Positions 61,802 through 64,000 of a DNA stretch of 64,000 nt are shown piece by piece (position 1 is the stretch's first letter; every line of letters begins with the position of its first letter). The notes beneath the pieces were generated by a model, which saw nothing but the letters and a program-made list of their open reading frames with translations, ran no database searches and was not told the DNA's origin. The position numbers were made by a program, and so were the translations under genes. This DNA is from Bacteroidetes bacterium SB0662_bin_6 (lineage in GTDB: Bacteria > Bacteroidota > Rhodothermia > Rhodothermales > VXPQ01): positions 1 through 64,000 of the forward strand of contig VXPQ01000035.1 of the NCBI GenBank assembly GCA_009839485.1. The letters are read 5' to 3'.

Positions 61802-62017
61802 GGGGGTATCCGGGGCGCCTTGCTCTTTATGCGTGGTAGATCAGTAGGAAACTGATTTAGGTCGAGTTGGGGGTGGGAGGGACAGCCTTCAACGAGGAAC
61901 ATTCCGCGGGAGCTTGAAGACCAAACGCCCGGCAACGTATTTTAGCCAAGAAACTAGCTTGTCAAAGTGGCATAACCCAACCCGACAGTATACTTTATGT
62001 TATAGAACTGTTCATTC

Positions 62018-63223
62018 ATGAAAGATTTGGTTCTCAAGTTCCTGCCACGTGATTGGCAAGTGCGTGCGCTCGAAAAATGGAAGCCGGAGCGGCGCGGGAT
62101 AGTCAAGGTCGTTACCGGAGGCGGGAAAACGGTCTTTGCTCAGATGTGCCTGCAGGTGTTCTTCGAGGAGGCGAAGAACGGTCAGGCATTGATAATAGTC
62201 CCAACCGTTTCGCTGCTTGATCAATGGTGGGTCGCACTCCAGGAAGAGGCCGGTGTTTCACCTGATGATATTGGTCTGATCAGCGGGCAGGAGACCTGCG
62301 GGGGAAACGAGCCTATCATGATATCGGTGATCAATTCTGCGAGGAGCTTCACCGAAGAGTTCTCAAAAGATCGCACCTTGTTCCTGATTGTCGATGAGTG
62401 TCACCGGGCCGGGTCGCCCGCCAATGCAAAGGCGCTGTTGGGAAAATTTGTAGCAACACTTGGTCTTTCTGCCACACCCGAGCGTGAATACGACGAGGGC
62501 TTTGAGGAGTACATCGCACCGCGTCTCGGTCCGATCATTCATGAATACACTTACGTTGACGCATCCCGCGACGGGGTGATTAGTCCCTTTTCTCTGACCA
62601 ATGTACGGATTGATCTTCTCCCCGATGAGGAAGAGAAATATCGCAAGTACTCCCGTTCAATTGCGAGTGTACTACGCGCCGGATCGGGTGATGATGCTGA
62701 TGATAAATTAAAACGTTTGCTACAACTGCGTGCAGCAGTATCTACCAATGCCACGCGTCGCATCCCTGTAGCAGTTAAACTCGTCGAATTTCACAAGGGT
62801 GAGCGAGCGGTTGTCTTTCACGAACGGATTGGTGCGGCAAACCACATTCTTTCGGTTCTAATAGATAGGGGGCACCGGGCGACAATCTACCACACCAAAA
62901 TCGGTCCCGCAGTACGGCGCGATAATCTGAGACTTTTCCGAAAAGGGCTGTTCGACGTGCTGGTTTGCTGCCGGGCGCTTGATGAGGGGATTAACGTACC
63001 GGAGGCTAGCGTTGCGGTAGTGGCTAGTTCGACAGCAAGTCATCGTCAGAGGATTCAGAGACTCGGGAGGATATTGCGGGCAGCTAAGGGCAAAGATATG
63101 GCGTCGGTTTATACGATTTTCGCAACTGAGGAAGAGAGGAAGCGCCTTGAAGAAGAAGAGGAAAACCTCGAAGGGATCACCTCTGTTTCGTGGCACCAAG
63201 GACAGACTGAAACCGATGCCTAG
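62018..63223 (+). CDS. Superfamily 2 DEAD/DEAH-box helicase (XPB/DISARM-like)
   Basis: The 401-residue protein carries all SF2 motifs: RDWQVRALEKW (Q-like), VTGGGKTVFA (Walker A near 35), IVPTVSLLDQW, VDECHRAG (motif II near 127) and GLSATPER (III). The second RecA domain has AVVFHERIGAAN, ALDEGINVPEASV and HRQRIQRLGRILR (VI). Its codon use is visibly AT-richer than the neighbouring genes, suggesting transfer. The nuclease gene overlaps its last 8 bp. It lacks extra domains, so it is small for a stand-alone defence helicase. Confidence 0.9.
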   Translation: MKDLVLKFLPRDWQVRALEKWKPERRGIVKVVTGGGKTVFAQMCLQVFFEEAKNGQALIIVPTVSLLDQWWVALQEEAGVSPDDIGLISGQETCGGNEPIMISVINSARSFTEEFSKDRTLFLIVDECHRAGSPANAKALLGKFVATLGLSATPEREYDEGFEEYIAPRLGPIIHEYTYVDASRDGVISPFSLTNVRIDLLPDEEEKYRKYSRSIASVLRAGSGDDADDKLKRLLQLRAAVSTNATRRIPVAVKLVEFHKGERAVVFHERIGAANHILSVLIDRGHRATIYHTKIGPAVRRDNLRLFRKGLFDVLVCCRALDEGINVPEASVAVVASSTASHRQRIQRLGRILRAAKGKDMASVYTIFATEEERKRLEEEEENLEGITSVSWHQGQTETDA

Positions 63224-63992
63224 ACTCTACTACCAAGGCGAACGGTTTGACGAAATCTCTCCGAATGCTCTGATGGAGACTGAATTCGAGGCCCTTCTCA
63301 TTCAGAACGCCGGTATTATCCGGAAGGACACAGTAATCGTTCCGTTCAAGAAAACCGTCTATTCACCTGAAGGATCAGCACGTGCAGACCTAGCTATGAT
63401 CTCTACCGACTATCGCGATTGGGTTGTGATAGAAGTCGAGATGTCCCAGCATGATCTCTACAGACATGTGATTCCGCAAGTCCGCAAGCTTCAGGAAGCA
63501 AGATACACCCAGGAGCACGTCACCTATATTCACGATAAGTGCCCTGTGCTCGATAAGGCGAAGTTAAGCGACATGATGCGGGGTGATCCACCTGATATTT
63601 TGGTCATCGTGAATAAGCCCAATGCCGAATGGCGGAAAGAAATGCGACGTTACGGTGCCCATATGATGGTTTTCGAGATTTTCCGCTCCGATCTCAATAA
63701 GACAATCTTCGTTATTGACGGAGAGGCCCCTAAGCTCGCACACAGATTCCTCTCCAAGCTCTCTTTTGGAATGCTGCCCCGCTGTCTCATGCTCAGCTCG
63801 CCGGCAGCGCTTCCCGTCGAACCCGGCGTGCGGTTTCCAGTCCTGATAGAAGAACAGATCACCTACTGGGAACGCTTCCACACATCCACGTGTGTATACC
63901 TGACCCCAGTCGGCAAGATGCCCATCGATCCCGGACGAGAGTATGCGCTTATCCGGTTCGATAGTGGAGAGTATTCAATCCGCCCCCAGTAA
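63216..63992 (+). CDS. Predicted PD-(D/E)XK-like nuclease
   Basis: The 258-residue protein begins MPRLYYQGERFDEISPNALMETEFEAL. A restriction-endonuclease-like core follows: a helix with MEXEFEALL, then ARADLAMIS with the acidic residue, then DWVVIEVEMSQ (D...ExE in place of ExK) and HVIPQVRKLQEAR. The C-terminal half is beta-rich. I infer a nuclease; the ExE variant is unusual. Its ATG overlaps the helicase stop by 8 bp, so the two are translated together. An in-frame TTG at 63147 is less likely. The stop is 8 bases from the window end, so further genes of the module may be missing. Confidence 0.6.
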   Translation: MPRLYYQGERFDEISPNALMETEFEALLIQNAGIIRKDTVIVPFKKTVYSPEGSARADLAMISTDYRDWVVIEVEMSQHDLYRHVIPQVRKLQEARYTQEHVTYIHDKCPVLDKAKLSDMMRGDPPDILVIVNKPNAEWRKEMRRYGAHMMVFEIFRSDLNKTIFVIDGEAPKLAHRFLSKLSFGMLPRCLMLSSPAALPVEPGVRFPVLIEEQITYWERFHTSTCVYLTPVGKMPIDPGREYALIRFDSGEYSIRPQ

Positions 63993-64000
63993 GAAGGAAA

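Follow-up and report, generated by a model that had tools for sequence, protein, structure and literature searches.

In Iyer et al. (2008; PMC2292703), operons combining a MORC ATPase, a Rad25-like helicase, a nuclease of the restriction endonuclease (RE) fold and a methyltransferase (MTase) are predicted to be restriction-modification systems. In these operons, according to the same study, the Rad25-like helicase commonly shares a polypeptide with a nuclease of the RE-fold or HKD type, the linked DNA methyltransferase is frequent, not universal and mostly of the cytosine type, and the motif GhXhhpXXRhl is found in no family other than MORC. The MORC silencing ATPases of eukaryotes have been proposed to descend from prokaryotic MORC proteins; the literature searched contained no experimental work on a bacterial MORC. 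In the CglI and NgoAVII systems cutting by the separate nuclease requires ATP hydrolysis by its SF2 ATPase partner (PMC4267653). In VcSduA, a Shedu protein with a GHKL domain, the GHKL ATPase and the PD-(D/E)XK nuclease are both needed for protection against phages (PMC12137116).

The locus compared here with these systems begins within the analyzed window, i.e. positions 1-64000 (64,000 nucleotides) of the 95,385-bp contig C35 of Bacteroidetes bacterium SB0662_bin_6, and continues beyond it. Its features and those of its surroundings are as follows (contig positions are marked C35, with the corresponding L002 positions in parentheses).

61808..64000, no strand: window portion of the genomic island carrying the cassette, delimited by blastn against same-genus genomes; the island reaches 72483
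62018..63223, plus strand: XPB/Rad25-like SF2 helicase, 401 aa (Pfam, PADLOC and PDB matches, motifs)
63216..63223, plus strand: 8-bp overlap of the helicase and nuclease genes, equal in length in all four homologous loci
63216..63992, plus strand: predicted PD-(D/E)XK nuclease, ExE variant, 258 aa (residue conservation)
63993..64000, plus strand: first part of the 15-bp gap between the nuclease and MORC genes, the latter lying wholly beyond the window
C35:64008-65543 (L002:4008-5543), plus strand: GHKL ATPase with MORC S5 motif, 511 aa (HATPase_c_3, 2e-20)
C35:65574-66268 (L002:5574-6268): 202-aa protein sharing 49% identity with an MTase's partner in locus L004
C35:66569-68058 (L002:6569-8058), minus strand: N6/N4 methyltransferase (278 aa) overlapping a 219-aa protein, in the island
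C35:69461-72426 (L002:9461-12426): CBASS operon (patatin-like phospholipase effector, CD-NTase, E2-like protein), in the island
C35:74540-77012 (L002:14540-17012), minus strand: DUF488 protein, a second protein matching the PADLOC candidate PDC-M41A (8e-124), and a neighbouring ORF

An earlier note had proposed the helicase and nuclease genes as a compact defence pair of foreign-looking composition. Its coordinates, protein lengths (401 and 258 aa), ATG at 63216, 8-bp overlap and 216-bp spacer were all exact on recheck; the spacer (61802-62017) separates a radical-SAM/DUF3641 gene from the helicase start. The composition is indeed AT-richer: the GC content of the pair is 0.521 (52.1%), against about 60% in the rest of the window, and none of 300 sampled 1975-bp windows (positions 1-61801) was as low (mean 0.603, SD 0.021, minimum 0.566). 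Homologues in three other genomes share 66-83% identity with the helicase and 59-77% with the nuclease, and the dN/dS values against L004, the closest of them, are about 0.06 (helicase) and 0.15 (nuclease). Given these homologues, the retained length of the overlap and the low dN/dS values, the two ORFs are real, maintained genes and not chance ORFs. Their overlap suggests translational coupling.

The identification of the first gene product as an SF2 helicase was confirmed by a complete set of motifs (Walker A GGGKT at residues 34-38, DECH at 126-129, SATP at 151-154 and motif VI QRIQRLGR at 344-351) and by similarity to the Pfam families ResIII (3e-21), Helicase_C (1e-17) and ERCC3_RAD25_C (PF16203; 2e-8). 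Among solved structures, those closest to it are archaeal XPB/RAD25 chains (PDB, 6e-31). The best PADLOC family is PbeA (3e-70), which matches in its helicase half only (profile positions 251-645 of 672).

The suspicion that the module extends beyond the window proved correct, as a MORC gene begins at contig position 64008, on the same strand and 15 bp 3′ of the nuclease gene. It escaped the first reading because it sits past the window edge. The encoded protein carries the three GHKL motifs and the S5 signature GFSILHADRVV (residues 255-265), which fits the MORC motif quoted above, and a profile built from this protein and its relatives matched MutL and human MORC3 in the PDB at E of about 0.02. 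The helicase and nuclease genes are therefore the opening two of a three-gene helicase-nuclease-MORC cassette. Thus, both members of the proposed pair are present, but the unit is the three-gene cassette, joined in relatives by an N4/N6 methyltransferase. We consider it likely that the two genes belong to an ATP-dependent, restriction-type cassette directed against phages or plasmids, of which they make up two-thirds and in which the MTase marks host DNA in the intact relatives. Behind this reading stand the set of genes, the fact that it recurs in distant genomes, the conserved catalytic motifs, purifying selection, the acquired island and the defence neighbours.

No family in Pfam, NCBIfam, PADLOC or PHROGs was matched by the nuclease, in agreement with its initial description as an ExE variant without a named family. 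Eight residues (E21, E25, K45, D58, E73, E75, H84 and Q88) are invariant in 12 nuclease relatives, down to 15-20% identity, and include the ExE motif itself, E73-V-E75. The resulting E - D - ExE - Q layout would fit a PD-(D/E)XK enzyme with Glu at the Lys position, a replacement known from BamHI. The C-terminal ~100 aa have no recognised fold. AlphaFold models of the full-length protein and of residues 1-165 were of low confidence (mean pLDDT 45-47); the first showed the alpha-beta-beta-beta-alpha-beta order of elements expected for a PD-(D/E)XK core. In Foldseek searches this model was placed closest to Bax1 from XPB-Bax1 complexes and to other REase-like folds, at non-significant values (E ≥ 0.07), while the second model retrieved unrelated folds and lost the Bax1 match. 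HHalign comparison with ordinary PD-(D/E)XK neighbours, made with single sequences only, was uninformative. Since the AlphaFold models are poor and the Foldseek results of the two models disagree, we infer the PD-(D/E)XK-like fold, already suggested in the earlier note, only from residue conservation and the predicted order of secondary structure elements; the structure searches are weak.

The proximity of the helicase to archaeal XPB and the non-significant Bax1 matches speak for an XPB-Bax1-like repair pair without a role in defence, whose helicase would open damaged sites for incision by the nuclease. We regard this explanation as very unlikely. Because the nuclease has no Pfam match, it has no recognisable Bax1 family, and the structural match (E 0.07) disappeared with the second model. 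XPB-like helicases are common to many restriction and defence systems. Nor do the MORC ATPase, the MTase of the relatives, the patchy occurrence or the location in a defence island look like repair.

Distant relatives of the nuclease also occur in other contexts. Of two viewed with their neighbours, one (L028) lies beside type III mod/res genes and the other (L027) beside a type IIG-like methyltransferase. The ExE nuclease core is fused to a C-terminal RAMA domain in two proteins (L011:844-1770 and L021:777-1652), which are candidate modification-reading nucleases, and to a C-terminal DUF5655 domain in three others (L023, L024 and L025). An ExE nuclease family without a matching model in Pfam, NCBIfam, PADLOC or PHROGs recurs beside restriction systems.

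In a species-wide genome scan, relatives of the pair were found only in a gammaproteobacterial MAG (L004), Bauldia (L005) and Nitrospirillum amazonense (L006). The neighbourhood analysis proposed in the earlier note showed that the helicase and nuclease genes recur together in all three, with an MTase gene adjoining. The helicase-nuclease-MORC order is the same in the window genome, Bauldia and Nitrospirillum; the helicase and MORC proteins of the latter two share 66-76% identity with those of the window genome, and the nucleases 59-61%. In both the full order is MTase-helicase-nuclease-MORC, the MTase gene overlapping the helicase start by 8 bp in Bauldia and 4 bp in Nitrospirillum; in Nitrospirillum amazonense BR 12005 the four genes occupy L006:7649-12335. 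These MTases, 74% identical to each other, are N4/N6 amino-methyltransferases (PF01555, 1.7e-39 for the Bauldia protein; PADLOC MTase_II, 1e-112). In the gammaproteobacterial locus the MTase has an internal deletion and no AdoMet-binding motif, and an IS1595-type transposase and another MTase follow the nuclease, where the MORC gene would be. A fifth full-length, distant nuclease homologue (27% identity) is encoded in a genome of the same phylum as the window genome (L026), within one operon (L026:2757-8587) composed of genes for a 751-aa GHKL-like protein, an MTase, the ExE nuclease and a MORC protein (38% identity), with no helicase gene. Among 394 genomes of the phylum, full-length nuclease matches occur in two only, and full-length MORC matches in the same two only; the sample for co-occurrence is small (five full-length loci). 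The module is rare, since no more nuclease homologues were found in the Nitrospirillum order (82 genomes) or the Bauldia order (397 genomes). Searches by tblastn in phages and plasmids returned nothing, and viral contigs contained no nuclease or MORC relatives. The cassette is small (three or four genes) and has a cultured carrier, Nitrospirillum amazonense, so the role of a bacterial MORC is directly testable.

The linked MTase is intact in L005, L006 and L026. At the window locus no linked cognate MTase is present, and tblastn detected no MTase remnant upstream or in the 216-bp spacer. This absence, together with the loss of the AdoMet-binding motif in L004, counts against the restriction reading, and the trigger in the window genome may instead be independent of methylation. 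The nearest homologue of the cassette MTase in the window genome (49-50% identity) is encoded on contig C33 (L030, 3288 bp) and might protect this genome in trans. The C33 gene lies downstream of one encoding a HEAT-repeat-like protein. More generally, the cassette could be an MTase-independent or type IV-like defence that recognises a feature of invader DNA (modified bases, ends or topology), the MTase being an optional addition. Two of the four helicase loci have no working linked MTase, yet in both the helicase and the nuclease every catalytic motif is intact and under purifying selection, and distant nuclease relatives bear RAMA domains. We nevertheless judge this explanation unlikely: in L005 and L006 an intact MTase gene runs into the helicase gene, protection in trans by the related MTase is conceivable, and the loss of the MTase may be recent.

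Comparison by blastn with two genomes of the same genus (G243 and G244; 89-91% identity in the flanks) showed that homology ends at 61802-61807, directly after the radical-SAM stop codon, and restarts at 72484. The intervening 10.7-kb island is absent at this site from the close relatives and was horizontally acquired. The site is a variable integration site with defence content. In same-genus genomes it is occupied by a gene encoding a 563-aa ankyrin-repeat protein (at L044:2228-3919 and at the corresponding position in L045), and in two further members of the genus (L046 and L047) DNA homology also breaks off there. The island also carries the CBASS operon, whose components were matched at 4e-97 (patatin), 7e-112 (CD-NTase) and 4e-75 (E2). 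The 278-aa MTase and the overlapping 219-aa protein, which shows a weak REase_II match (E 0.004), are a probable separate type II restriction-modification pair. The DUF488/PDC-M41A cluster just outside the island is possibly a further defence-related cluster. The proposal of a defence module is supported by the MORC-type gene set and the CBASS-bearing island, but the module is probably a MORC-type restriction cassette and not a simple pair.

The gene for the 202-aa protein downstream of the cassette looks like a restriction gene stripped of its methyltransferase. This ORF is preceded by a short stretch similar to the 3′-terminal part of an MTase gene (identity of 74% over 19 aa and 86% over 36 bp). 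The cassette itself could be a decaying remnant, a restriction part that outlived its MTase and has ceased to be expressed or to work: the linked MTase has been lost at the window locus, and downstream of the cassette there are just the 202-aa ORF and a piece of a different MTase gene. This is highly improbable, as all three ORFs are full length, their motifs are conserved and dN/dS is low.

For the preferred restriction-type cassette we propose a mechanism by analogy with CglI/NgoAVII (PMC4267653) and VcSduA (PMC12137116). The nuclease, a MORC dimer or both would engage incoming unmarked DNA, on which the XPB/Rad25-like helicase would translocate using ATP. The MORC ATPase would then close as an ATP-driven clamp, remodelling or trapping the DNA and licensing the nuclease to cut it; the adjacent N4/N6 MTase would provide the self mark on host DNA in the intact relatives. 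The proteins would accordingly act as a complex, with an active nuclease of the predicted fold and DNA cleavage as the outcome. A bolder version, which we put forward tentatively and consider rather unlikely, is a MORC-licensed helicase-nuclease machine in which the MORC clamp or the C-terminal domain of the nuclease senses a feature of the invader without a linked MTase. The ExE nuclease would then represent a new family with swappable C-terminal domains (RAMA, DUF5655 and the domain found here) serving several restriction systems.

Systems in which helicases and nucleases are coupled were compared with the cassette. Hachiman, Gabija and DISARM were ruled out, in line with the earlier note, since PbeA is the best PADLOC match, HamB matched the helicase at 1e-5 only, and the nuclease and MORC proteins match none of the HamA, HamB, GajA, GajB, DrmA, DrmB or associated MTase proteins of these systems. 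PbeA of DndCDEA-PbeABCD is the nearest PADLOC family to the helicase domain; however, it has an N-terminal HKD/PLD nuclease, whereas the 401-aa cassette helicase has no N-terminal domain, and the cassette contains neither of the PbeA partners, which are the ABC ATPase PbeC and a protein resembling DndE. Assignment to PbeABCD was rejected, given the lack of an HKD domain and of any DndC (TIGR03183) match in the window genome, which is 96% complete. XPB-Bax1 likewise joins an XPB-type helicase to a partner nuclease, but it is an archaeal repair pair without MORC or methyltransferase, and the cassette nuclease is unrecognisable as Bax1 by sequence.

CglI/NgoAVII share with the cassette an MTase, a separate nuclease and an SF2 ATPase, but they are three-gene sets without MORC, with a PLD nuclease bearing a B3 domain and a Z1 helicase. 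VcSduA similarly joins a GHKL ATPase with a PD-(D/E)XK nuclease; it differs in being a single fused protein with a DUF4263 nuclease that has a catalytic lysine, and in having no helicase. The same four roles as in the cassette are found in the Dcm-MORC-Z1 helicase-PD-(D/E)XK operons of the type present on Rathayibacter plasmid NZ_CP047182 (G097), whose MORC protein is 29% identical over its length to that of the cassette. These operons differ in their Z1 helicase, 5mC methyltransferase and nuclease.

The closest correspondence is with group 1 of Iyer et al. (2008), which unites a MORC ATPase, a Rad25-like helicase, an RE-like nuclease and an MTase in one neighbourhood. Here, too, a GHKL ATPase bearing the MORC S5 motif shares an operon with a Rad25-like helicase. 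The cassette differs in its separate nuclease gene, which belongs to an unnamed ExE family, and in its N4/N6 MTase, the described ones being mostly of the cytosine type. The earlier note had held that membership of a known type III restriction or mobile-element gene set would speak against its proposal; this partly applies, because MORC and the MTase place the cassette among the predicted MORC-type restriction-modification operons (PMC2292703). The exact helicase-nuclease-MORC set was not found described in the literature searched, in which coverage of subscription papers is thin. Operons of this general kind were predicted in 2008; having the nuclease as a gene of its own, and one from an ExE family without a name, sets the cassette apart from them.
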